Shown here piece by piece: positions 10,267 through 55,592 of a DNA stretch of 64,000 nucleotides. Source of the stretch: Amnibacterium setariae. Lineage in GTDB: Bacteria > Actinomycetota > Actinomycetes > Actinomycetales > Microbacteriaceae. Each line of letters starts with the position of its first letter. Position 1 is the first letter of the stretch. Location of the stretch: assembly GCF_003581425.1 (NCBI RefSeq), contig NZ_QXTG01000001.1:1-64000 (forward strand), given 5' to 3'. The notes under the pieces were generated by a model. The model was not told where the DNA came from, searched no databases, and worked only from the letters and a program-made list of their open reading frames with translations. The position numbers and the translations under genes were made by a program.

Positions 10267-10297
10267 GCCGGTCAGGCTACGGCGGCAGGATGAGGGG

Positions 10298-33633: not shown

Positions 33634-33723
33634 GGAGACGTCGCATAGTCCGGTCGAGTGCACCACCCTGCTAAGGTGGAGAGCCCTATTAGGGCTCCGT
33701 GGGTTCAAATCCCACCGTCTCCG
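33634..33723 (+). tRNA. tRNA-Ser (anticodon GCT)
   Basis: A 90-nt class II tRNA with acceptor stem GGAGACG/CGTCTCC, anticodon loop CTGCTAA giving GCT, a long variable arm (GAGCCCTATTAGGGCTC) and T-loop GGTTCAAATCC. CCA is not encoded. Its 3' end is the integration site of island 1: the element regenerates the tRNA, and bases 33703 onward are repeated at 48967. Confidence 0.96.
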
Positions 33724-33740
33724 CTCCTGTCGTAGCCCCG
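33703..33740. repeat. attL of island 1
   Basis: The left copy of the 38-bp direct repeat. It covers the T-arm and 3' acceptor strand of tRNA-Ser plus 17 nt beyond. Identity with attR continues imperfectly to about 33780 and includes a GTAGCCCCG...CGGGGCTAC hairpin (33732-33764) that spans the integrase stop codon and probably terminates both the tRNA and the integrase transcripts. Confidence 0.88.
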
Positions 33741-33760
33741 AGATCCGCGTGATTCCGGGG

Positions 33761-34945
33761 CTACTGCCCTGTTTGGGGCACTGCCGAAGACGGCTCTGCC
33801 CACACTTTGCCCACACTCGAGCGCATATACGCCTCATCGAGGCGGTCCGAAACGACGTCCAAGTCGTCGTCGAAGAGGTCGGCGTAGATGTCGAGCGTCA
33901 TCGCTGCCGACGCGTGGCCGAGCATCCGCTGAACGGCCTTGACGTTCGCGCCGGCGCTGACAGACAGACTTGCTGCGGTGTGCCGGAGGTCATGCAGCGT
34001 CATCGGATCGAGCCCCGCCTCCTTCAAGGCGGTCTTGAACCAAGACCGACTGCCGCTGCTCACGCGCACGCGGCGCATGTGCAGCCCGTCGGCCGCTGCG
34101 AACACGAGCTCGTCATCGCCTCGGCCTACTGTCTGCTCGCGCAGTGCCGTCTCTAGCAACCGCGGAAACGGGACTGATCGGCGCTTGTGGGACTTGGGCG
34201 TGCCGAGGCGGATCTCGGGCCCGACTTCGACCGCGTTGACCGAGACGGCGATCCTTCGCCGCTGAAGGTCCACGTCCCCGACGCGGAGGCCGATCGCCTC
34301 GCCCCAGCGCAGCCCCGTGTAGGCGAGCAGCAGAACCAACGTGCGATGCTCCCCCGACACGCCGGCCAACGAGTGGACCTGCTCGTGAGTCAAGTACCGG
34401 TGCTCCTTCCGCACCTTGCGTGGCAGGTTCACGCCCCGCGCGGGGTTCGACTGCACGCGGCGGTCCTTGACCGCGACATCCAGCACCCCGGCCAGAACCC
34501 CGTACGCCCGGAGCACCGTGGTCGCGCCTCGAGCAGCGCTCAGTTCGGAGACCCACGCCTGGACATCGCTGTGGCGCACCTCGCTGAGCCGAACGGCGCC
34601 CCAACGCGGCTGGACGTGAACTCGCCATGCGATGAGCAACGGGCGAAGCGATGACGGCTTGAGGTGCGTCTGCTGCGTGAGCCACACCTCACCGAGGTCG
34701 CCGAGCGCGATGCGCGCGTCGCCCGCGTTGACGTACTCTCCGCGGGCCTTGGCCACCTCGACGGAAGCAAGGAACATCTCCGCGTCGCGCTTCGTGACGA
34801 ATCCTCGACGGTCCGTCTGTCGGTGGTCCGGCGTGCGGTACCGCACCCGGTAGCGCCGTCCAGCACTCGTCGGATAGCTCTCGACCGATCCCACGCGTTC
34901 CTCCCGGCTGTTTTGAAAGGTCTCCTCGAACCGCCCTCTACTCAT
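33761..34945 (-). CDS. Tyrosine recombinase / integrase of island 1
   Basis: A 394-residue phage-type integrase. Residues about 15-60 look like an AP2/arm-binding N-terminus (RYRVRYRTPDHRQTDRRGF), followed by a SAM-like core-binding domain and a catalytic domain with TGLRWGE (Arg), LHDLRHTAASL (His-x-x-Arg) and MLGHASAAMTLDIYADL (His and nucleophile Tyr). The stop codon is 38 nt from the tRNA, and the gene reads toward att, as in many tRNA-targeting elements. All catalytic residues are intact. Confidence 0.92.
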   Translation of the reverse strand: MSRGRFEETFQNSREERVGSVESYPTSAGRRYRVRYRTPDHRQTDRRGFVTKRDAEMFLASVEVAKARGEYVNAGDARIALGDLGEVWLTQQTHLKPSSLRPLLIAWRVHVQPRWGAVRLSEVRHSDVQAWVSELSAARGATTVLRAYGVLAGVLDVAVKDRRVQSNPARGVNLPRKVRKEHRYLTHEQVHSLAGVSGEHRTLVLLLAYTGLRWGEAIGLRVGDVDLQRRRIAVSVNAVEVGPEIRLGTPKSHKRRSVPFPRLLETALREQTVGRGDDELVFAAADGLHMRRVRVSSGSRSWFKTALKEAGLDPMTLHDLRHTAASLSVSAGANVKAVQRMLGHASAAMTLDIYADLFDDDLDVVSDRLDEAYMRSSVGKVWAEPSSAVPQTGQ

Positions 34946-34994: not shown

Positions 34995-35708
34995 TCAGCT
35001 CTCGTGGGCTGTGGAGGACGGGAGACGGGCGCCTGCGCTATTCGCCCTAACCGCGCCGCGGTCGGTGAACACGTCTCGGACCGAGACTCGATCCGCGATG
35101 GCTCGGCCGGCTGGCGATGCCCTCAGAGCAGCTCGGACTGCTCGACCGCTGCTGTCGTTGCACAGGTACGTGACGCTGTCGGCTCCTCCAGCATCGAGGC
35201 GTCTCCTGTAAGCCTGGAAGATCGACAGGTACCGGGGTGCCCGCTTCGGAGTGAGCTCGACCTCGATGAGCTGCTGAGTACGACGACCGATCGCAACTCC
35301 GTCGGCCTGGTGGCTCCCGACCTGCGCAGGCCGCTCGTCCCGCCGCCACGCAAAGCTGGCGTTGATGTACCGAGCCGACACCGAGGCGACCGCGACCTCA
35401 TGCCGCGTCGTTTGCCGGTAGATGTTCGGCCGTGATAGCCCTGTCGCCTCGTAGGTTCCCCAGACGATCGAGCCACCCGGGCCGCCGAGGTTCGCGCGCT
35501 CGATCAGCCCCACGAGGTCCATCCGCGCACACCACGCCTGGGCCCGACGTGTCGACACCGGACCATCGACGCCGTTCAACGCTCCAAGTACCCATCGGAT
35601 CGCCTGCACATCCGTCACCCGAACGATCCGCAGCCACTCGCACATCCGCTCGTCCCGAGCCGTCACCCACGCCCGACGCTCCACACCGTCCGTATCCCGC
35701 ACCACCAC
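34995..35708 (-). CDS. Replication-relaxation-like protein of island 1
   Basis: A 237-residue protein: an N-terminal winged-helix part (MCEWLRIVRVTDVQAIRWVLGAL, VSTRRAQAWCARMDLVGLIER) and a C-terminal domain with HQADGVAIG and ELTPKRAPRYLSIFQAYRRRL. The layout matches the plasmid Replication-relaxation family (Replic_Relax), with the E-L-T-x-K pattern of its nuclease-like half; this is by-eye recognition. A homologue lies at the same place in island 2. GTG 35708 has GGAGGCGGGG upstream. It ends 50 nt before the integrase, so the two are likely cotranscribed. Confidence 0.6.
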   Translation of the reverse strand: MVVRDTDGVERRAWVTARDERMCEWLRIVRVTDVQAIRWVLGALNGVDGPVSTRRAQAWCARMDLVGLIERANLGGPGGSIVWGTYEATGLSRPNIYRQTTRHEVAVASVSARYINASFAWRRDERPAQVGSHQADGVAIGRRTQQLIEVELTPKRAPRYLSIFQAYRRRLDAGGADSVTYLCNDSSGRAVRAALRASPAGRAIADRVSVRDVFTDRGAVRANSAGARLPSSTAHES

Positions 35709-35802
35709 GAAACCCCGCCTCCGATGTCAGCCACACCTCCGATCACGCCATCACCGACCACCCCTCCTTGACATCTCACCTGTGTTCCTTAGACACAACT
35801 GA

Positions 35803-35923
35803 TTGCCCTGTCCTGGCCTGCCACCTGGACTCCCGAACCACCCCTACACAACGCTTCATTTCAAGTTGTGTGGGGGTGGTTCGGGAGCCGCGTCAGCGGA
35901 GGTGGCAGGCCAGGACAGGGCAA
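35803..35923. repeat. Long three-armed inverted repeat, island 1
   Basis: Outer arms of 24 bp (35803-35826 and 35900-35923) pair perfectly. Inside are a 21-bp hairpin with one mismatch (35831-35851, 35866-35886; 14-nt loop CGCTTCATTTCAAG) and a small CCGC-GTCA-GCGG stem (35888-35899), so the whole can fold as a three-way junction. A near copy is at 55593-55719 in island 2. TTGACA (35768-35773), 16 nt, TAGACA (35790-35795) upstream on the plus strand would start an RNA right at the structure. Confidence 0.85.
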
Positions 35924-36241
35924 GACGCCCGAAACCCCTCGCAAGACCCCACGCAACCAACGACGGGTACAACGACGGGCGACCCAGGGAGGATGCCCAC
36001 TGTGATCGGGTCGCAGGCGCGCTGTCGCAGCCTGAAGCCGTGACGCCGGCGCGAGACCACAGCTCTGAAACAAGCGCGCCTCGCTGGCGACGGATTTACG
36101 CACGTGATCAGAACCTGAGGCTCTATCGGCGCGAGATCTCGCTTCCCCGCGCGAGACACGTAGGACGTCGAGCTCCTGCGCCATCCGTCCCTCGTGCGAC
36201 GTCCGCGAGGTCGGAGAACGCGCCGCTCGCTCTGGACGAGC
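35924..36241. other. Gene-free conserved flank of the inverted repeat
   Basis: No gene supported. The first 70 bp are shared with island 2: GAAACCCCTCGCAAGACCCC at 35931-35950 and the repeated word ACGACGGG (twice, 11 bp apart, within 35960-35985), which looks like a pair of iterons. The remainder up to the SDR stop codon shows nothing recognised. Confidence 0.5.
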
Positions 36242-37291
36242 TTAGGAACGCCGAGGGGCGACCAGCCCGTGATCGATAAGACTCCGGCCCGTGTCGAGAA
36301 GTGTTTCGACCGCCGACCTTGTACGCCATCCCAGCTCGTCGGCGGCTTTCTGGCTTGAGAGGTGCTCGCTGCGCCCCACCGCTGGGAGCATCAGCTTGAC
36401 GGCAGGATCGAACCGGGCGGCGAGCCAAAGCGCCGCGAAGGGCAGCCGAGCAGTAGGCACGCGGAACCCTTGCGGTCGGAACTGATCTGCGAGGACACGA
36501 GCCATGTCCTGCATCCACATCGCTGGTCCGGCAAGGATGTATCGGCTCCCCGGCGCGGCCGGAGCGGTCATCGCGAGCAAATGGGCTGCAGCGAGGTCGC
36601 GAACGTCGACGACGCTGAACGCCAGACGCGGCACGGCGGGCAACGATCCGTCAAGCAGACGCGCGACCACCTCGCTGGACGCGTTAAGCCGAGCGACTTG
36701 AAGCGGCCCCAAGACAAGTCCCGGATTGAGCGCCACCAACTCCAATCGCCCGGCCGACGGCTGCTTGTCAACGAAGTTCCAGGCCGCCTGCTCGGCCATC
36801 GTCTTGCTCTTCTCGTAGGGCGAACTTTGCGGGAGAACAGACCAGTCGGCCTCAGTGAAGATCCTCCCGGTGCGAGTCTCGTGACCGGCGGTCACTGACG
36901 AAGTAGAGGAGGTAAGCACAACACGGCGGACAGATGCCCGCGCTGCCGCACGGAGGACCCGCAGCGTGCCCTTCACCGCAGGTCCGATCAGCGCGTCCTC
37001 GTCTTCGGGCAATGCTGAGGGGTTCGGCGAGGCCGTGTGCAGCACCACGTCAACTCCGTGTAGCGCTCGCTCCCAACCAATGTCGGAATCAAGGTCCGCG
37101 GCGACGAACTCGATACTGCCGCGCCCCTGCGCAGCTTGCGCACTGAGATGGGCCACTGCTGCGGTTGACGGATCTCCGCGCACTGTGCCGCGGACCGTGT
37201 ACCCCTCACTCAGCAGCCGGGATATCACGTGCCCGGCGACGAACCCCGACGCTCCGGTGACGAGCACCCTCGGGCTAGGACGACCTTCCAC
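36242..37291 (-). CDS. NAD-dependent epimerase/dehydratase-family reductase
   Basis: A 349-residue extended SDR resembling dihydroflavonol-4-reductases: VLVTGASGFVAGH at residues 9-21 binds NAD(P), and YEKSK near residue 165 is the catalytic Tyr-x-x-x-Lys. GTG 37291 is chosen because AAGGAG lies 6 nt upstream. It follows the NmrA-like gene by 26 nt on the same strand and is likely under the same TetR operator. Substrate unknown. Confidence 0.83.
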   Translation of the reverse strand: MEGRPSPRVLVTGASGFVAGHVISRLLSEGYTVRGTVRGDPSTAAVAHLSAQAAQGRGSIEFVAADLDSDIGWERALHGVDVVLHTASPNPSALPEDEDALIGPAVKGTLRVLRAAARASVRRVVLTSSTSSVTAGHETRTGRIFTEADWSVLPQSSPYEKSKTMAEQAAWNFVDKQPSAGRLELVALNPGLVLGPLQVARLNASSEVVARLLDGSLPAVPRLAFSVVDVRDLAAAHLLAMTAPAAPGSRYILAGPAMWMQDMARVLADQFRPQGFRVPTARLPFAALWLAARFDPAVKLMLPAVGRSEHLSSQKAADELGWRTRSAVETLLDTGRSLIDHGLVAPRRS

Positions 37292-37317
37292 AGCAACTCC
37301 TTGGTACGGGCTCCACC

Positions 37318-38163
37318 TCACTGGAACGCCTGCAGGTTGCGGCTGACCCAGTGCTGGAATGTGCGAGGTGGGCGCTGCAGAACGGAGGCGACGGCGGAAC
37401 TGACCAACCGCTCCTCGGGGACAGGGGCGCCCAGCACGTCAAGGGATCCGGCCGCCATCTCGCCGCTCATAAACCGCGTCATGGCGCCGTAGGCATCATC
37501 ACGCGCGACCTCCCGGAACTCGACCTCCTCGCCGAGCGCGTCCGCGATCGTCCGCGCCTGCTCGCGCGGGGTGATCGGCGCCGGACCCGTCAGGACGTAA
37601 GTCCGGCCGCGATGCCCGTCCTGCGTGAGAACGGCAGCCGCTACCGCGGCGACATCCGTCGGGTCCACGCTCGGCAATGCGACGTCGCCGAAGGGGGCGT
37701 AGACCGTCCTCTGAGCGCGGATCGAAGACACCCACCCGAGCGCGTTGGACATGAAGCCGTTCGGCCTGAGGATCGTGAATCCGGGTCCTGCTGTCCGTAG
37801 CGCCAGCTCGTATTGAGCCAGTCGCGCGTGCGACCTCGCTGCGGGGCGCGTACCAACAATCTGCGACGACACGAGGACGACGCGCTCCGGGCCAGTGTCG
37901 GTCACGGCCCGGATGAGTCGGTCCGGGTCCTCGCCCTCGCTGGTAAGTCCGCCCGGAAGGAGGACGAAGACGGCCCGCGCGCCAGCTGCGAGCGGACGCA
38001 CGGAGTCGGCGACATTCATGTCCGCGCCGACCCACCGCACATTGGGAAGGCGGGAGTAGTCGACTTCGTTTCGCGACACGGCGACCACGTCCTCCTCATC
38101 CTGAGCCAAGAGGTCGACCAGCGGTCGACCGATGTTGCCGGTTGCTCCGATTACGACGATCAT
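37318..38163 (-). CDS. NmrA-like NAD(P)-binding protein
   Basis: A 281-residue atypical SDR of the NmrA/HSCARG or quinone-reductase-2-like family: IVVIGATGNIGRPLVDLL at the N-terminus and RPNGFMSN mid-protein. Members are redox sensors or reductases; no Tyr-x-x-x-Lys is evident at the usual site. It starts 10 nt beyond a perfect palindrome and is divergent from tetR, so it is the probable main target of that regulator. Confidence 0.82.
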   Translation of the reverse strand: MIVVIGATGNIGRPLVDLLAQDEEDVVAVSRNEVDYSRLPNVRWVGADMNVADSVRPLAAGARAVFVLLPGGLTSEGEDPDRLIRAVTDTGPERVVLVSSQIVGTRPAARSHARLAQYELALRTAGPGFTILRPNGFMSNALGWVSSIRAQRTVYAPFGDVALPSVDPTDVAAVAAAVLTQDGHRGRTYVLTGPAPITPREQARTIADALGEEVEFREVARDDAYGAMTRFMSGEMAAGSLDVLGAPVPEERLVSSAVASVLQRPPRTFQHWVSRNLQAFQ

Positions 38164-38172
38164 GTTGTCCCT

Positions 38173-38194
38173 TTCAGTCAGCCGACTGACTGAA
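38173..38194. promoter_or_regulatory. TetR operator palindrome
   Basis: Arms TTCAGTCAG (38173-38181) and CTGACTGAA (38186-38194) around CCGA form a perfect 9-bp inverted repeat in the 69-bp gap between nmrA-like gene and tetR. The position fits repression of both divergent genes. Confidence 0.8.
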
Positions 38195-38232
38195 CGCTAG
38201 CAGGTGCAACTCCTCGGCTTTACGATCGAGTC

Positions 38233-38814
38233 GTGAGCGCCGCCCGCGACCCGCGCCCGCCCGCGACAGAGAGCGCGCGTCGCCTCACGGATGCCGCAAT
38301 GCAAGTGCTCTATGAGCACGGCGTCGAGCGTTCGACGCTCGCTGACATCGCCCGCGCCGCGCAGATCCCGGTGGGGAACGTCTACTACCACTTCAAGACG
38401 AAGGACGCTCTGATCAGCGCAGTCCTGGCAGAGCACCGCACCTATCAGGAGACGGTCCTGCGTGAGCTGTCGGCGCGACCCGACCCGCGCGAACGCTTGA
38501 AGGGGCTCGTCGACGATTGGATGAGTCACCGTGACGCGGCATCGCGTCGAGGTTGCCCCACTGCGACCCTCGCGACCGAGCTGGGCAAGCGCGAGGACGA
38601 CGCACTCGCGCTGGAAGCACGTGTGCTCTATGTGGACTTGCTGGCCTGGATCGGCAGGCAGTTTGAAGCGCTCGGAGCCGCTCATCCGCGGGACTCGGCT
38701 CTGTCGCTGGTCTCCCGTTACGAGGGCATGTCCGTGCTCGCGCACGTTCTCCGCGACCCCGATGTGATCGTGCGGCAGGGCGAGGATCTCTCCGCATGGC
38801 TCGATCAATGCTGA
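38233..38814 (+). CDS. TetR-family regulator
   Basis: A 193-residue regulator with a typical N-terminal helix-turn-helix (GVERSTLADIARAAQIPVGNVYYHFKTKDALISAVL, residues 31-65) and a C-terminal ligand domain. The divergent reductases and the palindrome between suggest control of electrophile or quinone detoxification. GTG start with TACGAT at 38221-38226, 6 nt upstream, hence probably leaderless. Confidence 0.88.
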   Translation: MSAARDPRPPATESARRLTDAAMQVLYEHGVERSTLADIARAAQIPVGNVYYHFKTKDALISAVLAEHRTYQETVLRELSARPDPRERLKGLVDDWMSHRDAASRRGCPTATLATELGKREDDALALEARVLYVDLLAWIGRQFEALGAAHPRDSALSLVSRYEGMSVLAHVLRDPDVIVRQGEDLSAWLDQC

Positions 38815-38984
38815 TCGACGCCTCGCCCGACTGACCGAAGGCAGGAACGGCTCGTGGTTCCAGGCGGAAGCTCTCGCTCCGCCGATCCGTGTGGCGAAAC
38901 GAGCCCCCGCTGGCCTCCCGCTCGAATCGCGGCGACATGATCCCTCGTGGTCGCGAGCCTCCAGTGGCGGACGCCGCGAGCAGC

Positions 38985-39398
38985 TCAAGCAGGCTCGCGC
39001 AGCGCGGCAAGTTCGACCTGCTCGCCGTACATGCCCCAGCGGGAACCGGGGATGTCATGAATGACGACGAACGTGGGGGTTCTGTACTCGGCAGCCTCTG
39101 CATGCTCGTCGAGGACGCTCGTCGCCTCAGCGATCAGCCGCTGTCGAGCATACGCATCGAGGCCTCCTTCGAGCGCGAAGACCTCGAGCACGATCGTCTG
39201 CCTCGTCGCCGCGCGTCCAGCACTGAAGACCGTCTCGGGGCTCCACTCGTCGAAGACGACCCAGACCCCCTCCCTCACCTCCTGCCGGTCGGCGAGCTCC
39301 TCGCAAGCGATGCCGAGTTCGGTGAGCTCGGCCGCGACGGACGCGCGAGCATCATGGGAGAAGGTGCCCGCGGTCGAGCGGACGAAGAGCTTGGGCAT
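38985..39398 (-). CDS. Tautomerase-superfamily protein
   Basis: A 137-residue protein whose first residues MPKLFVRS give the catalytic Pro2 of tautomerases; it is longer than the 62-residue 4-oxalocrotonate enzyme and resembles the two-motif, cis-CaaD-like or Tautomerase_3 group. Substrate unknown. It stands alone on the minus strand; about 170-bp and 190-bp flanks contain no gene. Confidence 0.75.
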   Translation of the reverse strand: MPKLFVRSTAGTFSHDARASVAAELTELGIACEELADRQEVREGVWVVFDEWSPETVFSAGRAATRQTIVLEVFALEGGLDAYARQRLIAEATSVLDEHAEAAEYRTPTFVVIHDIPGSRWGMYGEQVELAALREPA

Positions 39399-39526
39399 GA
39401 CGCTGCACTTCCTATTTGGATCGAATCAACATGCGAGGGATCGGAGCGGGTTGCGCCTGGGTCTGGGCGATGACCCGCGCCGTTTAGACGAGCGGTGAGC
39501 GGATGCAGAGCCGCGCGCTGAAGGCT

Positions 39527-39574
39527 GGCGGTGTGCGGGTGATCGAGTCGGAGCTCGAGTGCCCGCACACCGCC
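39527..39574 (-). terminator. Terminator hairpin after fumC
   Basis: Perfect 13-bp arms (39527-39539 and 39562-39574, GGCGGTGTGCGGG and complement) with an inner TCGAG/CTCGA stem, 18 nt beyond the fumC stop codon. No U-tract. Confidence 0.65.
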
Positions 39575-39591
39575 GCGGTTCGGGCCGAAGG

Positions 39592-41046
39592 CTAGGCGCC
39601 GGCCACTCCCGAGCCGACCATGCGGCTCGGATCGACGATCCGATCGAAGGACTCTTCGTCGACCTTCCCGGACGCGACGGCGGCTTCCTTGAGTGTCTGT
39701 CCGTGTGCCAGGGCGTCCTCGGCGATCTTCGCGGCCGCCTGGTAGCCGATGACCGGGCTTAGGGCCGTGACGAGCATGAGGCTCTGGTCCACGTAGCCGC
39801 CGATCTTGTCGCGATTCAGTTCCGTGCCCGCGACGGAGAAGGTGCGGAACCGCGCCATCCCGTCTGCGAGCACGCGTGCGGAATGCAGGACATTGTTGAT
39901 GATGATCGGCCGCATCGCGTTCAGCTCGAAGTTGCCTTGGCTGCCGGCGAAGGCCACGGCGGAGTCGTCGCCGATCACCTGGATGGCGATCATCACGATG
40001 GCTTCGCACTGAGTCGGATTGACTTTGCCCGGCATGATCGAGGATCCGGGCTCGTTCTGCGGCAGCAGGAGCTCGGCGAATCCGGTTCGCGGGCCGGACG
40101 CCAACCATCGCATGTCGTTCGCAATCTTCATGAGTGCGACCGCGAGTCCGCGGAAGGAGGCGTGGGCTCGAACCAACGGGTCGAGCGACCCCTGTGCGGC
40201 GAACTTATCGGGCGCGGTGACGAACTCCTTGTTCGTGAGTTCGGCGATCTTCGCGGCGACGTCTCGACTGAATCCGTCGGGCGCGTTCAACCCCGTTCCG
40301 ACTGCCGTCCCGCCGAGTGCGATCTCGAGCAGGCCTTCGCGGGCGTGCTCGAGATCGGCGATGCAGGCCTCGAGCTGTGCCGCGTAGCCCGACCACTCCT
40401 GCCCCACGGTCAGGGGCACGGCGTCCTCGAGATGAGTCCGCCCGATCTTGACCACGTCCATCCACCCATCGGACTTCGCTCGGATCGCCGTTGCCAGACG
40501 CCGCGCCTCGGGCAGCAGTCGCTCGTCGATCACCTCGAGAGCGGCGATGTGCATTGCGGTCGGGAATGAGTCGTTCGACGACTGACCCATGTTGACGTCG
40601 TCATTCGGTCCGACGGGCTGCTGGGTGCCGAGCTCGCCTCCCAGCAGCTGGATCGCCCGGTTGGAGAGCACCTCGTTGACGTTCATGTTGCTCTGGGTGC
40701 CTGAGCCGGTCTGCCATACGTACAGCGGGAAGTGATGGTCGAGCTTCCCGTCGATCGCCTCCTCGGCGGCTTGGACGATGACCTCTGCCTTCCAGGGCTC
40801 AAGTCGACCGGCTGCTGCGTTGACGAGCGCTGCGGCTTTCTTGACGACGCCGTACGCGTGGTACACCTCCTTCGGCATCCGGTCGTCGCCGATGTCGAAG
40901 TGCTCGAGCGATCGCTGGGTCTGCGCGCCCCAGTACTTGTTGGCGGGAACCCGCACGTCGCCCATGCTGTCGAACTCGCGACGGGTTCCGGTCGCGTCGA
41001 GCCCGATCGGGATGTCTCGCTTCTGCGGGTGATCGCTCTTGCTCAT
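39592..41046 (-). CDS. fumC: Class II fumarate hydratase
   Basis: A 484-residue fumarase of the aspartase/fumarase superfamily, interconverting fumarate and malate. Signatures GRTHLEDAVP (202-211) and GSSIMPGKVNP (334-344) are intact. It lies inside island 1, 27 nt after the malic enzyme on the same strand, so it is extra to any chromosomal fumarase, which is not in this window. Codon use is less extreme in GC than in the men region, in line with acquisition. Confidence 0.92.
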   Translation of the reverse strand: MSKSDHPQKRDIPIGLDATGTRREFDSMGDVRVPANKYWGAQTQRSLEHFDIGDDRMPKEVYHAYGVVKKAAALVNAAAGRLEPWKAEVIVQAAEEAIDGKLDHHFPLYVWQTGSGTQSNMNVNEVLSNRAIQLLGGELGTQQPVGPNDDVNMGQSSNDSFPTAMHIAALEVIDERLLPEARRLATAIRAKSDGWMDVVKIGRTHLEDAVPLTVGQEWSGYAAQLEACIADLEHAREGLLEIALGGTAVGTGLNAPDGFSRDVAAKIAELTNKEFVTAPDKFAAQGSLDPLVRAHASFRGLAVALMKIANDMRWLASGPRTGFAELLLPQNEPGSSIMPGKVNPTQCEAIVMIAIQVIGDDSAVAFAGSQGNFELNAMRPIIINNVLHSARVLADGMARFRTFSVAGTELNRDKIGGYVDQSLMLVTALSPVIGYQAAAKIAEDALAHGQTLKEAAVASGKVDEESFDRIVDPSRMVGSGVAGA

Positions 41047-41073
41047 GACCGTGTTCTCCTCGTGTCCGTCCGG

Positions 41074-42720
41074 TCAGGACTGTTCGGGGTAGGCGGGCTG
41101 CCACATGGCGTCCTCGACGCGCTGCACCAGGTCGTCGAGCGGTTTCGTGGCGACGCCGTCCGCCGCGGCTGCTCGGGCGACGTACTGCGCGACGGTGGCG
41201 GAGGAGGCGCGGAGGTTCGCGACCTCGGGAAGCAGCGATGCGCCCGGACGAGCGACGTCGACCTGGCTGGCGACCGCCTCGGCCGCGGCGAGGAGCATCC
41301 CGTCGGTGACGTGGTCGGCGCCGGAGACGATGGTCCCAAGACCGAGGCCCGGGTAGAGCAGCGCGTTGTTCGCCTGCCCGATCGTGTAGGTGACGCCGTC
41401 ATAGTCGATTGGTTCCACTGGAATGCCGGCGGCGACGAGCGCCTTGCCGCCCGACCATCGGATGGCGTCGGCGGGCATCACCTCGATGCGGCTGGTCGGG
41501 TTGGACAGCGGCAACAGGATGGGCCGCTCGACGCCGTCGGTCAGGGCCTTCACGACGTCCTCGGTGAAAGTCCCGGCTGCCGTCGATGTACCGATCAGGA
41601 TGGTGGGCTTCACCTGCTGGATTACGGTCAGCAGGTCGATCGCGTCGTCGTTCCGGTGCCACTCCGCCACGTCCTTCGCGGGCCGCGCGTAGACTTGCTG
41701 GTAGTCGGGAAGGCCGTTCATGTCGTCGGTGACGAGACCGTCGCGGTCCACGAGCCAGATCTGACGTGTGGCCTCGCCGTCAGAGAGCCCGTCCCTCACC
41801 ATCGCGGCGCGGATTTGGTCGGCCATACCGGTGCCGGCAGTGCCGGCCCCGAAGACGACCAGGCGCTGGTCGCGCCACGCCTCGCCCGTCACCTTCAAGG
41901 CCGAGAAGCATGCGGCCATGACGATCGCGCCGGTGCCCTGCATGTCGTCGTTGAAGATGCGGTACTTCTTCGCGTTGTCGACGAGGATCCGGCGGGCGTT
42001 GGACGGCCCGAAGTCCTCGAAGTGCAGCAGCGCCTTTGGGTACAGCTCCGCGGCGGTCTTCAGATAGAGGTCGATGAAGTCGTCGTATCGCTGCCCGGTG
42101 ATGCGGGCGTGCCGGTTGCCGAGGTACGCGGGGTCGTTCAGCAGCGTCTCGTTGTCGGTGCCGACGTCGAGGTTGACCGCGATGACTCGGTTCGGGTCGA
42201 TGCCAGCGGCGGCGGTGTACACCGCCAGCTTGCCGATGGAGATGTCCGTGCCGTTCACTCCCCAGTCGCCGATGCCGAGGATCTCCTGCGCGTCGGAGAC
42301 GACGATCAGGTCCACGTCGTCCGCGCCCAGACCGAGCATCTGAAACGAGGCGCGGACGTCCTGCGGGCGGTCGATGGAGAGGAACACGGCGCGCGAGTCG
42401 CGGAAGTCGGTGCTCCACTGCTGGATCGCTTCGCCGACAGTGGGGTCGTAGACGACCGGGAGCAGCTCGGCGAGGTGATCGGCGAGCAGTCGGAAGTAGA
42501 GCACCTGGTTCCGGTCGTGGACCTCGTTCAGATAGATGTACTTGTGAAGGGCACTCGGCTGCTGCTGCAGCTGGCGGTACGCGCGCGTCGCCTGCTGGTC
42601 GAGGGTCTCGACTGCGGCGGGCAGCCGACCGGTGATTCCGGCGGCGGAGCGCTCCTCGTGCGTGAACGCGGTCCCTTTGTTGGCGGTGCGGTCCTGCAGG
42701 ACCGTCTCGTGGATCGGCAT
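41074..42720 (-). CDS. NAD-dependent malic enzyme or malolactic enzyme
   Basis: A 548-residue malic-enzyme-family protein: NKGTAFTHEER, VVYDPTVGEA with the catalytic Tyr, LHFEDFGPSNA and FNDDMQGTGA metal site, and NAD fold VVFGAGTAGTG. The segment ILGIGDWGVNGTDISIGKLAVYTAAAGIDP is closer to my memory of malolactic enzymes than to E. coli MaeA, so decarboxylation to pyruvate or to lactate are both possible. With fumC it could turn fumarate into pyruvate or lactate. Confidence 0.85.
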   Translation of the reverse strand: MPIHETVLQDRTANKGTAFTHEERSAAGITGRLPAAVETLDQQATRAYRQLQQQPSALHKYIYLNEVHDRNQVLYFRLLADHLAELLPVVYDPTVGEAIQQWSTDFRDSRAVFLSIDRPQDVRASFQMLGLGADDVDLIVVSDAQEILGIGDWGVNGTDISIGKLAVYTAAAGIDPNRVIAVNLDVGTDNETLLNDPAYLGNRHARITGQRYDDFIDLYLKTAAELYPKALLHFEDFGPSNARRILVDNAKKYRIFNDDMQGTGAIVMAACFSALKVTGEAWRDQRLVVFGAGTAGTGMADQIRAAMVRDGLSDGEATRQIWLVDRDGLVTDDMNGLPDYQQVYARPAKDVAEWHRNDDAIDLLTVIQQVKPTILIGTSTAAGTFTEDVVKALTDGVERPILLPLSNPTSRIEVMPADAIRWSGGKALVAAGIPVEPIDYDGVTYTIGQANNALLYPGLGLGTIVSGADHVTDGMLLAAAEAVASQVDVARPGASLLPEVANLRASSATVAQYVARAAAADGVATKPLDDLVQRVEDAMWQPAYPEQS

Positions 42721-42863
42721 GGAGCCCTTCTTCCTGTGGTTGTGATGCGGGGTAGCGGATGGCGGTCACAGACCGTTCTGCGAACGCAGGCGGTCGTTGA
42801 TCACGCGGACGAGGGTGGGCGGACGGGGCCGCAGAGCCATGAAGCCGGAGAGCCCAGGGGCGC

Positions 42864-43538
42864 TCAGAGCGCGTGCCGGGATCGCACGAAGTTCGCGTAG
42901 GCCTGCAGCGCGGCCGGGATCCGGTCGTGTCCCTCGGTGAGTTCGACGATCTCGCGATGGATGTCCGTGTGCTCGAGGAGGTGCGCGAGCACACGTGCGA
43001 CGTCGTCGCGCGACACCTCGTCGTAGCGGATTGCTCCACCGACGTGGACGGTGTGCGAACCGGACTCGGACGTCAGGGCTCCGGGCCGGACGATCACCCA
43101 GTCGAGATCTGTCTCGGCGAGCTGGATCTCGGCTTCGCGCTTCGCGCGCAGCCAGTGCTCGAACGACGACGTGAGCTCGTGGTTGACCCACGCCTCCGGG
43201 AAGACCGACACCAGCACGAACCGATGGATCCCGGCCCGTTGCGCTGCGCGCGCAACTCGTGCAGGCGCGTCTCGGTCGATCGCGTTGATCGATTCGTCGT
43301 CACCATCCGAACCGGCCGTGAAGGCGACAGCGGTTGTGCCCCGCATCACATGCGCGAGCTCCGCTTCCGTCATGACGGCGAGGTCTCCGCGGACTGGTGT
43401 GACGCCTCGCTGCTCGAGGTCGTCGGCCTGCCCCTCCTCTCGGTGCAGACCGACGACCTCGACGCCGTCTCGTACGAGCACGTCAGACAGGCGTCGACCG
43501 AGCTTTCCGGTCACCCCGGTGAGGAACACCCCGGTCAC
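42864..43538 (-). CDS. NAD(P)H-binding epimerase-like protein
   Basis: A 224-residue atypical SDR (YwnB/BVR-B-like): GVFLTGVTGKLGRRLSDVL binds NAD(P), with RFVLVSVFPEAW and WVIVRPGALTSE typical of this group. It probably reduces or senses a small redox molecule. GTG 43538 is the start, weakly supported by GAGCGAAGCGA upstream. It is 59 nt downstream of the classical SDR and 143 nt upstream of the malic enzyme, all on the minus strand. Confidence 0.78.
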   Translation of the reverse strand: MTGVFLTGVTGKLGRRLSDVLVRDGVEVVGLHREEGQADDLEQRGVTPVRGDLAVMTEAELAHVMRGTTAVAFTAGSDGDDESINAIDRDAPARVARAAQRAGIHRFVLVSVFPEAWVNHELTSSFEHWLRAKREAEIQLAETDLDWVIVRPGALTSESGSHTVHVGGAIRYDEVSRDDVARVLAHLLEHTDIHREIVELTEGHDRIPAALQAYANFVRSRHAL

Positions 43539-43597
43539 ATTCGCTTCGCTCTGCTGGTCGCCGGTGATCCTGGGTGGACTCGGCCACGCCTGCCGGA

Positions 43598-44446
43598 CTA
43601 CTCGGAGACCGGCGTCTCGGGGTCCATGTCGTAGGACTTCTGCACGTTGTCGTGCCGGCTCTTCAGCCCATCCGTCGTCTTCATGGACCACGGCGCATCG
43701 ATCAGCTGCTTGGTCTCGTCGATCATCGACTTCGGCTCGAGGTTGCGGAACGAGTCGATCTCGCCCGCGGCGACCGCGGTCAGGGTCGCGTAGACGGGCT
43801 CCGGGTCGAACTGCGCCCGCGGGAATGCGAGGTTCGTGTAGTCGAAGACACGCTGGGCCGGGTCGTCCACCCAGCCCTTCCAGGACTCGAAGCCGCGGTC
43901 GTTGAAGCCGGTGAGGAACGGCCCGGGATTGACGGTCGCGACCTCGATCCCGAACTCCTGGGTCTCCATCTTCATCGTCTGGGCAATCGCCTCGACCGCG
44001 TGCTTGGAGGCCGAGTAGACGCCGGTGAAGGGGTTGACGTTGAGCCCTTCGCGCGACGAGACCCACACAACACGACCCTCGCCGCGCTTGATCATCTGCT
44101 TGACGATGCCCTGAGTCAGCAGCAGCGGACCGGTCACGTTGACCTCGAACTCGTTGCGGATGTTCGCGCCGGGGATGTCCAGCACCGACCCGCCCTCGAG
44201 GACGCCGGCGTTGTTGACGAGGATCTCCACGCCCCAATCGAGCGCCTGCTTGCGGTCACCCTCCTCCGTGACGTCGAGCTTCTCGACCTGGAGCTTCACG
44301 CCGCGGGCCTTCGCGTCGCGCTCAACGAGCTCCTTCTGAGCCCAGATCTGCACCGACGCGATCACGTCGAAGCCCTTCTCGGCAAGCCGCAGAGCCGCCT
44401 CGTGACCGAAGCCGCTGCCGGCGCCCGTGATCAAAACCTTCTTCAT
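43598..44446 (-). CDS. Classical short-chain dehydrogenase
   Basis: A 282-residue SDR: ITGAGSGFGHEAALRLA at residues 6-22 binds NAD(P), NNAG is present near residue 98, and the catalytic YSASK lies near residue 143. Substrate unknown. It heads a minus-strand cluster (SDR, NAD-binding protein, malic enzyme, fumarase) and is divergent from a LysR-type gene 226 bp away, its likely regulator. Confidence 0.87.
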   Translation of the reverse strand: MKKVLITGAGSGFGHEAALRLAEKGFDVIASVQIWAQKELVERDAKARGVKLQVEKLDVTEEGDRKQALDWGVEILVNNAGVLEGGSVLDIPGANIRNEFEVNVTGPLLLTQGIVKQMIKRGEGRVVWVSSREGLNVNPFTGVYSASKHAVEAIAQTMKMETQEFGIEVATVNPGPFLTGFNDRGFESWKGWVDDPAQRVFDYTNLAFPRAQFDPEPVYATLTAVAAGEIDSFRNLEPKSMIDETKQLIDAPWSMKTTDGLKSRHDNVQKSYDMDPETPVSE

Positions 44447-44672
44447 CGACTTCTTCCCTCGGTTGGTGCGTCGCAGGGGCGGAGACGTCGCGCGCCGTCG
44501 TGCGGGTGCTCCACATCGACGTCGCTCGGTCGGAAGCGGGGGCCACGTCTCGGGACGGCGGCTCCGGTGAGCTTCCTCGTCACCGGCGACATGAGGACCG
44601 TAGAAGCGCGCTCACCGCGTTCGGAAGAACCAGTCGAGCCCACTAGTGTGCGTTTCTGCACAGGGAGGTCCA

Positions 44673-45590
44673 GTGCCTGAAGAGGTTGCCGAATTCGGGA
44701 TCCGTGCAGACGATCTGCGGTATCTCGCAGCGCTGGCAGACACCGGACGGCTCGTCGCGACCGCAGAGGTTCTCGGCGTCGACCACACGACGGTTGCCCG
44801 TCGAGTCCGAGCGCTGGAGAAGCGACTCGGTGCGCAACTCGTCCGTCTCGAGAACGACGGCTGGGAGCTGACCGATGCTGGACGAGCGGTTGTCGGACAG
44901 GGGAGAGCGATCAGCGATGCGGTGAAGCGCGCAATCCGGGCTGTCGCAGGCGTGCAGGACGACGAGCTCACGGGGACGGTGCGAATCGCCGCAGCGGAGG
45001 GCTTCGGTACCCGCTTCGTCGTCCCGGCCCTCGCGCGCGTGCAATCCGCCCACCCGCGGCTGAAGGCTGACCTCGTGACCGGCGCGAGCCACCTCGGGCT
45101 CCGAGGCACGAACTTCGACCTCACGCTCGTCCCCGGCCCTCCCCCGCGAACGCGCCTGTTCAGCGAACGGTTGAGCGAGTACGACGCCGCGCTGTACGCC
45201 AGCGAGTCGTACCTGGACACGTACGGCAATCCGGCGACGCTCGACGAGTTGCAGGCACACCGCTTCGTCTTCTTCGTCGACGCGATGCAGCGGGTCCGTG
45301 AGCTCGACCTCGAGAGCTATGTTCCGCGCCACACCGTGCAATTCGCGTCGCCGAACATCTTTGCCCTGCTCGAGGCGACGCGGGCCGGAGCCGGCATCTG
45401 CTTGCTCCCAAAGTTCATGGCGACCACGACAGCAGGGCTCCGCCGCATCGACGCAGACCTCCCTCCACAACGGGTCCCGCTGACCCTCGTCGCTCGACCG
45501 GAGGTCTTGGACCGGCCAGAGGTCCGACTCGTGCGTGAAGCACTGCACCGTGAGGTCGCGACGCGGCAGAACGAGCTGGTGTGGAAGTAG
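44673..45590 (+). CDS. LysR-family transcriptional regulator
   Basis: A 305-residue regulator: winged helix at residues about 8-66 (LRYLAALADTGRLVATAEVLGVDHTTVARRVRALEKRLG), then a periplasmic-binding-like effector domain. GTG 44673 is chosen for GGGAGG 6 nt upstream; a longer reading would start in sequence without support. Divergent placement from the SDR suggests it controls that cluster. Confidence 0.87.
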   Translation: MPEEVAEFGIRADDLRYLAALADTGRLVATAEVLGVDHTTVARRVRALEKRLGAQLVRLENDGWELTDAGRAVVGQGRAISDAVKRAIRAVAGVQDDELTGTVRIAAAEGFGTRFVVPALARVQSAHPRLKADLVTGASHLGLRGTNFDLTLVPGPPPRTRLFSERLSEYDAALYASESYLDTYGNPATLDELQAHRFVFFVDAMQRVRELDLESYVPRHTVQFASPNIFALLEATRAGAGICLLPKFMATTTAGLRRIDADLPPQRVPLTLVARPEVLDRPEVRLVREALHREVATRQNELVWK

Positions 45591-45637
45591 ATGGGGATGT
45601 GAGACGAACGACCTCGTACCCCTCGTCCCAGCAGCGC

Positions 45638-46057
45638 CTAGGGCTCGGCTGTCACCACGAGGGCCGCGAGTCGGCGTCCGAGATCGGCCGCGTCAACCAC
45701 TGAGAGCGACGAGAGCGGAGAGGCCGCGCGAACTGCGATTCCGACCTCCCGCGCCGCTGCTTCCCCAGCGGTTGAGAGTCGCAGGACTCGGCGACGCCGA
45801 TCCTGCTCGTCCGCGTCGCGCGACACGAGGCCGGCACGCTCCAACTCTCTCGCCAGCAGGGTCACGTACGAGGGGTCGCACCCGAGCAGATGCGCGAGTT
45901 CCGACATCCCCCCTCGAGCGTCAGGCAACTGCGCTAGCCGCCACAACATCCCCGCGGCGGGTGCACCGACGCCCGTGGCTTGCAGGGCCTTCTCCGCGGC
46001 GCCGCGATGGAGCTGCGCCAATCGGTCGATCTGCGCTGCGAGAGCGAGTACGTCCAT
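45638..46057 (-). CDS. MarR-family regulator
   Basis: A 139-residue winged-helix protein (GGMSELAHLLGCDPSYVTLLARELERAGLVSRDADEQDRRRRVLRLSTAG is recognition helix and wing). I start at ATG 46057; an upstream reading to 46111 would put codons over the operator. Divergent from the quinone-oxidoreductase gene and separated from it by a perfect palindrome, so it probably represses both. Confidence 0.85.
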   Translation of the reverse strand: MDVLALAAQIDRLAQLHRGAAEKALQATGVGAPAAGMLWRLAQLPDARGGMSELAHLLGCDPSYVTLLARELERAGLVSRDADEQDRRRRVLRLSTAGEAAAREVGIAVRAASPLSSLSVVDAADLGRRLAALVVTAEP

Positions 46058-46081
46058 GAGCCTGCTCCGTTCCTTGACTCT

Positions 46082-46103
46082 TTCAAGTATCTTGATACTT
46101 GAA
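46082..46103. promoter_or_regulatory. MarR operator palindrome
   Basis: Arms TTCAAGTATC (46082-46091) and GATACTTGAA (46094-46103) around TT form a perfect 10-bp inverted repeat, and a further half-site TCAAGTATC follows at 46108-46116. TTGACT at 46074-46079 is a likely -35 of the quinone-oxidoreductase gene, so the dyad covers its promoter. Confidence 0.85.
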
Positions 46104-46132
46104 TGCGTCAAGTATCACAGAGGGAGGTCCAC

Positions 46133-47167
46133 ATGTCGGAGGTCGAGGGGAAGGCGGTGGTGATCGATCGCCAGGGAGGACCCGATGTGCTCCGGATCGC
46201 CCCTGCAAGGTTCCCAGACCCGGTCGCGGACGAGGTCCGCGTCCTCGTGGAGACTGCCGGCGTCGCATTCGGCGACCTCCTAGTCCGCGAGGGCCTGACG
46301 GGGTCCGTCAGGGGCGGCCGAGTGACCCCGGGCTACGACATCGTCGGGATCGTGGATGCCGTCGGTCCGCATGTATCGGGCATCGAGATTGGAGCGCGAG
46401 TAGCTGTGCGGACTGCGGGGCGAGGCGGCTACGCCACGCATGTGATCTCGTCTCAGCAGTTCGCGGTGCCGGTTCCGGAAGGTGTCGACAGCGTAAGTGC
46501 GGTCGCCCTGGTGCTGAACTACGTCACCGCGTGGCAGATGCTCACGCGCGTAGCTCCTGTCGGGCACGGCGGATCGGTCCTCGTGCACGGGGCGGCCGGC
46601 GGCGTCGGCAGCGCACTAGCCGAACTCGCGCTGCTGCGCGGACTGCACGTCATGGGCACCGCGTCGCCCTCCCGCCGCTCGCAGCTGACGGATCGCGGGG
46701 TGGTCCCCCTCGATCGCACCGCCGACTGGTGGGCTGGTGCACGCGCGGGAACGCCGGGCGGGTTCGACGCAGTGTTCGACGGCGTCGGGGGGAGGACGGG
46801 CAGAAAGTCGCTCGTCCTACTCGGGCCGGGCGGCACGCTCGTCGCCTACGGGGCCTCGAGCGCGTTGCGTGAGGGGCGGCGCGACGTGCCGCAACTGGTC
46901 GCTGCGGCGGCGCTGGGACCGCGGATGGGCGCACTCACCGCGTTCCGACTGGGCCGCGGTCTGGTCGGATACAACTCGTCGACCTTCGTGCCAGCGCACC
47001 CCGACTGGTTTAGAGAGGATCTTGTCGAACTCCTGCGGCTGCTTCAGGGGTCAGCGATTGCTCCGATGATCGCCGAGGTGCTGCCGCTCGATTTGGCCGC
47101 TACTGCTCACGAGCACGTCGCGCGCGGCGTCGCGGGCAAGGTCGTGCTGAAGGTGGCGTATCGCTGA
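46133..47167 (+). CDS. Zinc-free medium-chain quinone oxidoreductase
   Basis: A 344-residue MDR-superfamily protein: GROES-like N-terminal domain (GVAFGDLLVREGL, PGYDIVGIVDAVG) and Rossmann domain (VLVHGAAGGVGSALAELA). It lacks structural zinc cysteines, as in quinone oxidoreductases and enoyl reductases. ATG 46133 has GGGAGG upstream; ATG 46103 lies in the operator and is less likely. Expected to reduce quinones or enones with NADPH. Confidence 0.87.
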   Translation: MSEVEGKAVVIDRQGGPDVLRIAPARFPDPVADEVRVLVETAGVAFGDLLVREGLTGSVRGGRVTPGYDIVGIVDAVGPHVSGIEIGARVAVRTAGRGGYATHVISSQQFAVPVPEGVDSVSAVALVLNYVTAWQMLTRVAPVGHGGSVLVHGAAGGVGSALAELALLRGLHVMGTASPSRRSQLTDRGVVPLDRTADWWAGARAGTPGGFDAVFDGVGGRTGRKSLVLLGPGGTLVAYGASSALREGRRDVPQLVAAAALGPRMGALTAFRLGRGLVGYNSSTFVPAHPDWFREDLVELLRLLQGSAIAPMIAEVLPLDLAATAHEHVARGVAGKVVLKVAYR

Positions 47168-47432
47168 GTACGCGCTGCAGGTGCGGCAGTCAGCGGGCCT
47201 TGGCCGGCCGCTGCAGCGAGCCCGAAGTCGATGAGCTGCCCGCGTCGCCCTCTCGAGCCGGCAGAAGCCGCCATGCTGCCGCACCCGCCGACGCCCCTCT
47301 TGAGAACGGCGCCCATGAGCAGCGCGCTCTTCGTGCGGCGCCTCCGTGCACCCGAGGTCTCAGCGGCCTTGGGGGCTTGCTCGTTGGGGATCTCTCAGTT
47401 CTGGGCAGTCGCGACTCCGCCGACGCGTCCGG

Positions 47433-48359
47433 TCAAGGCACGAGTACGAGCTTGCCTAGGACGTGCCCGCTCTCAAGCCGACGATGGGCGTCGGCGACTC
47501 GACTGAATGGGAAGGTCTCCTCAACCTGCACGTGCAGCTTGCCTGCTTCGATCAGCGCGATCAGCCCGGCAAGCCCGGCAGGATCTGGGTCCACCGCGAC
47601 ACCACTGAACCGCATTCCTGCTCGCTCGTAACGGTCGCGCAGCTTCGTATCGTCATCGGCAACGGCCGTGACGAAGTGGCCGCCGCGGCGAAGAACGGCG
47701 AGCGAACGTTCGGCGACGGCTCCGCCGACGGTGTCGAGCACTACGTCGACATCACCGATCACCTCGGCGAAGTCATGGCTTTGGTAATCGATCAGCTCGT
47801 TCGCACCGAGACTCTCGACGAACGCACGCTTGGCCCCGCTGACCGTCGTGATGACGTGAGCGCCGGCGGCAGCGGCGATCTGTATCGCGATGTGCCCGAC
47901 GCCTCCCCCGCCAGCATGGATCAGCACACGGTCACCCCGGCGGATCTGAGCCAGGTCGACGAGCCCCTGCCACGCGGTGAGCCCGACCGTAGGTAGCGCA
48001 GCGGCCTCAACATGCGTCATGGAAGAGGGCTTGAGAGCGAAGTGCAGTGCAGGTGCAGCCACGTACTCGGCGTAGGTGTGCGCCGAGCGGGGAAACAGTG
48101 GCATGCCGAACACCTCGTCACCTGCGCTGAATCGTGCGGTTACCGCCCTCTCCACCACTCCGCTCAGATCCCACCCCAGCGTCACTGGAAGGGGTAGAGC
48201 GTCGCCCCCCTCGCCTGCGCGGAGTCTGGCCTCCAGCGGGTTGATACCCACCGCGTGCACGCGAACGAGCACCTCGGTTGGCAGGGGTTCCGGCGCGGCG
48301 ACGTCGACTACGTGCAGGACGCTGGGGTCGCCGAACTCGGTCTGAATGATGCTGCGCAT
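47433..48359 (-). CDS. NADP-dependent medium-chain oxidoreductase
   Basis: A 308-residue quinone-oxidoreductase-like MDR protein: GINPLEARLRAGE, PVTLGWDLSGVV and NADP loop VLIHAGGGGVGHIAIQIA. No zinc ligands. ATG 48359 has AGGAG just upstream. Divergent from the hxlR gene, which is the usual regulator of such reductases; 70 bp separate them. Downstream 47168-47432 holds nothing recognised. Confidence 0.86.
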   Translation of the reverse strand: MRSIIQTEFGDPSVLHVVDVAAPEPLPTEVLVRVHAVGINPLEARLRAGEGGDALPLPVTLGWDLSGVVERAVTARFSAGDEVFGMPLFPRSAHTYAEYVAAPALHFALKPSSMTHVEAAALPTVGLTAWQGLVDLAQIRRGDRVLIHAGGGGVGHIAIQIAAAAGAHVITTVSGAKRAFVESLGANELIDYQSHDFAEVIGDVDVVLDTVGGAVAERSLAVLRRGGHFVTAVADDDTKLRDRYERAGMRFSGVAVDPDPAGLAGLIALIEAGKLHVQVEETFPFSRVADAHRRLESGHVLGKLVLVP

Positions 48360-48966: not shown

Positions 48967-49004
48967 GTTCAAATCCCACCGTCTCCGCTCCTGTCGTAGC
49001 CCCG
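48967..49004. repeat. attR of island 1
   Basis: Perfect 38-bp copy of 33703-33740; imperfect identity continues to about 49045, including the GTAGCCCCG/CGGGGCTAC hairpin (48996-49028). Here the tRNA body is absent: sequence left of the repeat is unrelated to tRNA-Ser. Confidence 0.88.
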
Positions 49005-53280: not shown

Positions 53281-53353
53281 GCGCCCGTAGCTCAACGGAT
53301 AGAGCATCTGACTACGGATCAGAAGGTTGGGGGTTCGAGTCCCTCCGGGCGCG
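53281..53353 (+). tRNA. tRNA-Arg (anticodon ACG)
   Basis: A 73-nt tRNA with acceptor GCGCCCG/CGGGCGC, D-arm GCTC-GAGC, anticodon loop CTACGGA (ACG, the TadA substrate) and T-arm GGGGGTTCGAGTCCCTC. CCA not encoded. The integrase of island 2 ends 18 nt downstream, so its 3' end is the presumed attachment site. Confidence 0.97.
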
Positions 53354-53360
53354 CAGAACA

Positions 53361-53400
53361 GAAGCCCCGGTCAGAAGAGGAACTCTTCGGCCGGGGCTTC
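53361..53400. terminator. Hairpin spanning the integrase 2 stop codon
   Basis: Perfect arms GAAGCCCCGG (53361-53370) and CCGGGGCTTC (53391-53400) with an inner GAAGAG/CTCTTC stem. It contains the integrase stop codon and lies just after tRNA-Arg, probably ending both transcripts. The arrangement mirrors the hairpin at attL of island 1. Confidence 0.75.
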
Positions 53401-55470: not shown

Positions 55471-55592
55471 ACCATCTCCTTGCCCTCACACCGACTTCAC
55501 CGCCCACGCCACCATTCCCTCCCCGATCTCGCATCCCATTCGTGTCTTCGAATCACAACTGCCTCTACTCAACCGACACCCCATCGCTCCTT

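Follow-up and report, generated by a model that had tools for sequence, protein, structure and literature searches.

A three-armed inverted repeat beside a MOBC-like gene in actinobacterial islands and plasmids: a candidate origin of transfer

What is the function of a DNA segment that can fold into three arms and recurs almost unchanged in two islands of one chromosome? This question is raised by the 64,000-nucleotide stretch of the Amnibacterium setariae genome analysed here (the window), in which such a segment stands in each of two tRNA-integrated islands (Table 1). The initial annotation had considered an origin of replication or transfer, a single-strand origin and a structured RNA.

The fold and its family

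Folding confirmed a three-armed inverted repeat at both sites of the window. On the + strand, the outer arm is followed by a short linker, the inner hairpin, a mini-stem of 4 bp and the second outer arm. Outer stems of 24 and 27 bp and a CCGC/GCGG mini-stem had been assigned to the two copies and were recovered in both, whereas the inner hairpin, previously given as 20-21 bp, comprises 23 pairs. The copies are 97% identical across 124 nt, and their likeness extends to positions 35979 and 55772 (177 nt, 94%). The two islands had been called unrelated. This holds for their integrases, which are only 29% identical, but not for the gene adjoining the structure, which is shared at about 70% identity. 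Similarly, the supposedly invariant loop core CGCTTCATTTCAAG is common to the three copies of this genome, but loop length and sequence vary among the 26 copies of the family.

Table 1. Positions of the islands and of the structural elements in the window.
Feature	Position	Strand	Remarks
tRNA-Ser (gct), integration site of island 1	33634..33724	+
Left direct repeat, island 1	33703..33740	+	38 bp exact, inside an 86-nt repeat (33698-33783)
Tyrosine integrase, island 1	33761..34945	-
Gene X1, compact MOBC/Replic_Relax-like protein	34995..35708	-	island 1
Structure-X1 spacer	35709..35802	-	AG on X strand about 0.63-0.65, low end of family
Copy 1 outer stem, 5' arm	35803..35826	+	24 bp, perfect pairing with 35900-35923
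Copy 1 inner hairpin, 5' arm	35830..35852	+	holds conserved GAACCACCC; 23 pairs with 35865-35887, 96% complementary
Copy 1 inner loop	35853..35864	+	variable across family
Copy 1 inner hairpin, 3' arm	35865..35887	+
Copy 1 mini-stem CCGC-GTCA-GCGG	35888..35899	+	arms 35888-35891/35896-35899
Copy 1 outer stem, 3' arm	35900..35923	+
Copy 1 conserved flank	35927..35979	+	side bearing the second hairpin in most relatives; scan lists none here
Cargo, island 1	36242..48359		epimerase, TetR, tautomerase, fumarase-type lyase, malic enzyme, dehydrogenases, LysR
Right direct repeat, island 1	48967..49004	+
tRNA-Arg (acg), integration site of island 2	53281..53354	+
Left direct repeat, island 2	53312..53356	+	45 bp exact; right copy at contig 65627-65671, beyond the window
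Tyrosine integrase, island 2	53371..54777	-
Gene X2, the X protein modelled	54817..55470	-	island 2
Copy 2 AG-rich tract	55471..55592	-	X strand; 0.71 over first 80 nt
Copy 2 outer stem, 5' arm	55593..55619	+	27 bp, partner 55693-55719
Copy 2 inner hairpin, 5' arm	55623..55645	+	partner 55658-55680
Copy 2 inner hairpin, 3' arm	55658..55680	+
Copy 2 mini-stem CCGC-GCCA-GCGG	55681..55692	+	arms 55681-55684/55689-55692
Copy 2 outer stem, 3' arm	55693..55719	+
Copy 2 conserved flank, CCCCTCGC...GCGAGGGG	55720..55785	+	possible second hairpin by eye; none in scan of nearest 75 nt

The third copy of the source genome (G000:C1:706001-706130) adjoins an integrase at a tRNA-Arg gene. In total, the family comprises 26 copies in eight genomes, representing one genus and a single genome of a neighbouring genus; the underlying search of 398 genomes gave ten matches, two of which (G007 and G078 contig 9, 24-40 nt) were taken as chance. 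All seven Amnibacterium genomes examined carry copies, up to nine in one and six in another, and a covariance model confirmed them in three of the seven. Order-wide, the model matched six of 396 genomes. The matches in the source genome, G078 and G141 are real; after folding, those in G215, G478 and G665 (E 3e-4 to 0.008) were left out of the family. The G215 locus forms a perfectly nested long hairpin with an outer arm that is family-like in its letters (CCTGGCCTGCC), without the three-way fold. The source genome also holds a weak match to the model at G000:C1:1094862-1094970 (E 4e-5). Other Microbacteriaceae and Nocardia plasmids share the architecture, their sequence being largely different. 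Used as a DNA query against plasmids and phages, the fold region found no match; unlike this query, the protein encoded by the adjoining gene (X) brought up plasmids that carry the fold.

Changes between copies had been thought to fall mostly in loops. They do not, as 16 of the 54 pairs show compensatory double changes. Standard pairs make up 95.1% of the pair cells in the 26 copies, and the covariation score is 0.173 compared with 0.023-0.038 in slid registers. In 66 diverged sequences, Watson-Crick pairs account for 97.2% of the outer stem (22 pairs) and 98.3% of the inner stem (14 pairs), against 52% and 70% after partner shuffling; these percentages ignore kinship and are somewhat inflated, the stems having been found through pairing. 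Compensatory cells number 512 in the outer and 174 in the inner stem (shuffled maxima 164 and 48), with double changes at every tested position of both. Four sequences (window copy 1, L053, L043 and L144) were left out of this count because their ends or register defied automatic parsing. The covariation seen in the alignment of the 26 copies and in the 66 diverged sequences bears out the early proposal that selection acts on the structure.

The mini-stem is weaker (75% Watson-Crick in the 66-sequence set) and not universal: the corresponding region of Cryobacterium, CTCGCTGCGCTCG, pairs poorly, and the mini-stem is missing from L144 and L088, each a single uninterrupted hairpin. Within the inner stem, 63 of 74 sequences share the core AACCNCC..GGNGGTT, as opposed to 168 of 20,000 random windows. 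This core (35836-35842 and 35875-35881 in the window), kept while the stems otherwise covary, is a candidate for a protein contact. Specificity of the architecture was addressed by a nested-inverted-repeat scan of 80 loci (1.43 Mb) picked for having X or a copy. It found 73 repeats, each at a known copy or at most 900 nt from X, four of them being repeat sightings in loci that overlap. Shuffling 40 of these loci in two-base blocks (744 kb) left none.

Purines mark one flank of the structure. Counted on the X strand, AG content in the 80 nt facing X or the integrase averages 0.75 in the 26 Amnibacterium-type copies and 0.78 in 40 others, compared with 0.50 and 0.55 on the far side. With limits of 0.65/0.35, which 2.1% of random 80-mers exceed, the flank toward X or the integrase qualifies as AG-rich in 24 of the 26 copies and 35 of the 40, and the far flank in 0 of 26 and one of 40. 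Before the structure, read along the X strand, a loose threshold gave a short second hairpin in 42 of 47 loci, compared with 55 of 400 random stretches; at a stricter threshold, 16 of the 47 loci had a longer one, compared with 2 of 400. By eye, no conserved nic-like sequence is apparent beside the structure. Two Nocardia plasmids carry an extra hairpin of 28-30 bp directly after the AG-rich tract (L156:4731-4810 and L158:3702-3777), with the same loop, ATTCCGCAAGCTCCATAAGC.

Gene X, its product and its neighbours

The structure had been expected to lie always upstream of a gene for a Replic_Relax-like protein. This is not the case in Amnibacterium, where 11 of the 26 copies are followed by X and then the integrase, nine by an integrase but no X (one of these integrases being 2.5 kb off) and six by neither in that orientation. 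One genome, G016, has six copies, yet no X match at 1e-8. Five copies without X or a same-orientation integrase nearby (L040, L042, L043, L044 and L053), three of which (L040, L042 and L043) lie about 0.3-2 kb from a tRNA gene, are candidates for island remnants or cis-mobilizable elements. In A. kyonggiense, two opposite-facing copies stand 3.7 kb apart (L045:7220-7346 and 11066-11192); a different integrase (9772-10860) points at the second, and a ParB-like gene lies on its other side.

Seen from the gene, the association is close. X was found in 22 of the 249 Microbacteriaceae genomes searched, from 13 of the 85 genera, and 28 of 30 X loci have a long inverted repeat upstream, the exceptions being L089 and L095, whose X genes contain stop codons. 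A scan of GTDB contigs gave 54 X loci, a set partly overlapping the former, from 13 named Microbacteriaceae genera, some MAGs and, weakly, one Pseudonocardia. The structure was detected automatically upstream of X in 47 of these 54 and by eye in two further loci, about 30-355 nt from the X match. Among the automatic misses, L109 has the repeat and failed the filter, L144 is a single long hairpin, and in L150 (Pseudonocardia) there is a nested repeat whose small stem lies on the opposite side. L128, L147, L149 and L151 have no repeat upstream of X, which is cut or partial in the last three. Three distant X relatives from other families have no such repeat within about 1.5 kb. Three contigs titled as Acidobacteria MAGs (L103, L140 and L143) carry X loci of the Microbacteriaceae kind; the title of L103 probably reflects a misnamed bin. 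A degraded X in the source genome (G000:C1:374170-374682; L095, L168 and L174), which has a stop codon and whose first 40 residues are unmatched, is, judged by its sequence, an island remnant; L095 is without the long repeat.

X also occurs in 22 plasmid records, including Clavibacter pCM1 and pCS1, plasmids of Microbacterium, Herbiconiux and Gryllotalpicola, and four Nocardia plasmids at 27-28% identity. Thirteen of the 22 were examined, and the structure is present in all 12 that include the upstream side of X. In the four Nocardia plasmids, 0.6-1.3 kb separate it from X downstream, a space that holds at most one annotated gene. MOB-suite typed six of the 13 as mobilizable, all with the label MOBC, which is given per record and not per gene; non-mobilizable are seven of the 13 and 11 of all 22 records.

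Sequence divergence ties the structure to X and not to the integrase. In 27 loci with both genes, divergence of the structure correlates with that of X (Mantel r 0.80; p 0.002, the lowest value that 500 shuffles can give) and not with that of the integrase (r 0.04, p 0.26). In Amnibacterium alone the correlation with X is weaker (r 0.34, p 0.058, nine copies). The co-divergence may partly reflect linkage.

The X protein itself weakly resembles relaxases of the MOBC type. The NCBIfam model NF041423 ('MobC family replication-relaxation') matches 18 of 18 aligned members, with a best E of 4.6e-10 and scores far under 200 bits, which places them below the curated cut-off for membership. A single member grazes Pfam Replic_Relax (E 0.035), and a sequence search of the PDB gave no match for X. 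X models as a winged helix joined to a restriction-endonuclease-like domain. In the AlphaFold2 model of X2 (pLDDT 93.3), the winged-helix half resembles MarR proteins (7el3_B, Z 8.3, rmsd 2.0, 69 aligned residues), and the other half resembles EcoO109I (1wtd_B) with Z 7.3-7.5, a level reachable by a common arrangement (at 7.3: rmsd 3.3, 97 aligned); Foldseek matched X2 to EcoO109I with a probability of 0.98 and an E of 0.068. Six residues, H98, H128, D131, E144, E146 and K150, are invariant in 27 X sequences; among them, D131, E144, E146 and K150 are candidates for the acids and the lysine of a PD-(D/E)XK active site. A paper on streptococcal IMEs, in the part cited here, equates PF13814 Replic_Relax with the MobC relaxase superfamily of CONJscan (PMC5357655). 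According to the relevant sections of a 2025 review (PMC12857230), MOBC relaxases are related to the PD-(D/E)XK group; TraX of pAD1 carries a winged HTH at its N terminus, and no covalent intermediate was observed for it. The MobC proteins encoded by the S. suis 89K island and by lactococcal plasmids, described in the sections consulted as accessory proteins and not as MOBC relaxases, were set aside.

Genes for a transfer apparatus stand near X in relatives, and none came up in the scanned parts of the window's own islands. A gene of an ATPase cluster (c2), with weak matches to TraD, VirB4, FtsK and HerA, comes after X in 33 of the 54 loci; c2 is 41% identical (E 1e-135) to a plasmid protein of Clavibacter LMG7333 annotated as 'type IV secretion system DNA-binding'. 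Further downstream, the fully read element L141 has SCO6880-family and VirB4-like genes, relatives of which occur in the same order on Microbacterium pMspBDGP8B (L177), where the structure lies at 1222-1337. Both c2 and an integrase are lacking downstream of X in 13 of the 54 loci. The integrase is divergent and beyond the structure in 24 of the 54 loci, directly downstream of X in eight and unfound by clustering in 22; tblastn adds at least one divergent integrase that clustering missed (L108). In seven of the 54 loci, all on plasmid-like contigs, the next gene upstream is a member of cluster c27; the Clavibacter representative of this cluster shares 91% identity with a plasmid gene annotated as replication protein. 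Upstream of the structure, integrative elements repeatedly carry SSB-like and ParA/VirC1-like genes (L112:8411-8773 and L141:8639-9280). None of the ten cargo proteins scanned in island 1, out of 11 predicted (left out: 42864-43538), is a transfer protein; in island 2 the scan covered a part of the genes. A search for coupling proteins at 1e-5, which a remote type could escape, found none in six of the seven Amnibacterium genomes, the source genome included, and one weak partial match in the seventh. No helper is in sight here because the Amnibacterium genomes are without a clear coupling-protein match.

A putative transfer origin and alternative readings

It seems likely that the structure serves conjugative transfer as a cis-acting DNA site of some kind. 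More specifically, and with less assurance, we favour the view that it is the core of an oriT used by X, which would be a compact relaxase of the MOBC type. Provided that X is a relaxase, the locus presents a cis region with inverted repeats beside the relaxase gene, as an oriT should. Several features combine as they would at an oriT: the relaxase-like X, its coupling-protein neighbour, the adjoining structured DNA, the occurrence on plasmids as well as islands, and the island copies without X. Both islands of the window have an integrase and att repeats at a tRNA gene, as IMEs do. The match of all aligned members to NF041423, the position upstream of X and the co-divergence with X make a transfer origin tied to the Replic_Relax-like protein the best supported of the functions initially considered.

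According to this model, the islands of the window would be mobilizable elements. The integrase would first excise the island as a circle. X would then dock on the three-way DNA fold, present either as an extruded cruciform or in single-stranded DNA, and presumably nick one strand in or next to the fold. The nicked strand would be passed to the coupling protein and type IV channel of a helper element. The AG-rich tract, CT-rich on the opposite strand, may serve as an unfolded stretch for strand separation, SSB binding or priming. Islands without X could be moved in trans by the X or relaxase of another element.

A more far-reaching idea, which we put forward tentatively and hold to be doubtful as it stands, is that X is a relaxase that reads a DNA three-way junction instead of a linear nic sequence, much as a junction-resolving PD-(D/E)xK nuclease would. 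Reading of shape would free the stems to change pairwise and allow integrase-only islands to reuse the site in trans, from Micrococcales to Mycobacteriales. A literature search joining oriT, three-way junction and relaxase returned no match.

The main rival to the oriT reading is a single-strand origin or ssDNA promoter. On this view, the strand that is transferred or displaced would fold into the three-way hairpin, and RNA polymerase or primase would start an RNA along the CT-rich template toward X and the integrase, priming the second strand and the first expression of these genes in the recipient. The CT-rich template does lie on that side in the copies counted above (24 of 26 and 35 of 40). 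Of 65 non-tied sequences, 53 fold better as the + strand, the template in this reading, and copies without X upstream of an integrase would be accounted for. G.T wobbles are more frequent on the + strand than on the other (52 vs 31 in the 66 sequences, 27 vs 13 in the 26 copies), but this bias is small, mixed among genera (several Cryobacterium are opposite) and counted with kinship ignored. Moreover, co-divergence with X would be unexpected if host enzymes alone read the structure. We retain this reading, as a rather improbable one, since both the CT-rich template and the slight excess of wobbles favour the + strand as the single strand. A structured leader RNA or attenuator of the X/int operon would agree with the fixed orientation upstream wherever X or the integrase adjoins, about 30-355 nt from the X match. 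Ordinary RNA helices are expected to be richer in G-U pairs than these stems, which are 97-98% Watson-Crick with few G-U in 66 diverged sequences. We infer from the rarity of G-U pairs that DNA fits better than RNA. In addition, Rfam at gathering thresholds matched only two tRNAs in the window and no family at the structure, six copies adjoin neither X nor an integrase in that orientation, and the X-sense strand, the would-be RNA, folds slightly worse, so that a leader RNA is unlikely.

Two further readings carry little weight. As a vegetative replication origin of plasmids and excised elements, the structure would be in suitable company with the replication-protein-like c27 gene in seven of 54 loci, and with the ParA- and SSB-like genes of relatives; however, integrative elements have the structure without a c27 gene, and its divergence follows that of X, which makes such an origin very unlikely. 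A site for the integrase, acting in recombination or excision control, would explain why 19 of the 26 Amnibacterium-type copies lie directly upstream of int or X-int in a single orientation. In most other loci, however, the integrase is divergent, about 0.7-7 kb off or unfound in the stretch, its divergence is uncorrelated with that of the structure, and the direct repeats lie at the tRNA gene, about 2 kb away. There is hardly any probability left for this last reading.

The oriT reading, to which we return, matters in several respects. MOBC relaxases are among the least understood. If it is true, the three-way oriT is a DNA tag by which islands without a relaxase can be counted as mobilizable, the fold is a defined substrate for testing a restriction-enzyme-like relaxase, and plasmids of Clavibacter, Microbacterium and Nocardia are linked with chromosomal islands.

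Comparison with known transfer systems

Like the MOBC relaxases TraX of pAD1 and MobC of CloDF13, as treated in the cited sections of PMC12857230, X is predicted to combine a winged helix with a PD-(D/E)XK-like domain. As in MOBC systems, the relaxase-like gene adjoins a structured region, and six X plasmids bear the MOBC label. The difference lies in the site: the reported binding site of TraX consists of five direct repeats at a distance of 70-120 bp from nic (PMC12857230), whereas a nested three-way inverted repeat is conserved here. CloDF13 is without a comparable nested repeat, our scan listing one 14-bp repeat with a gap of 106 nt. The oriT2 of pAD1 also has a large inverted repeat.

In the 2017 review of IMEs and oriT-only islands, as far as the consulted part goes, such elements are integrated at tRNA genes and carry either an integrase and a relaxase-like gene or an oriT-like region alone, which the islands described here resemble, and one canonical IME is recognised in Actinobacteria (PMC5704250). 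Unlike those IMEs, the present islands are actinobacterial and known from sequence only. The ssDNA promoter Frpo and single-strand origins are likewise large, strand-specific hairpins at the edge of a transferred region. In contrast to these, the element found here is a three-way junction with near-perfect stems that adjoins a MOBC-like gene.
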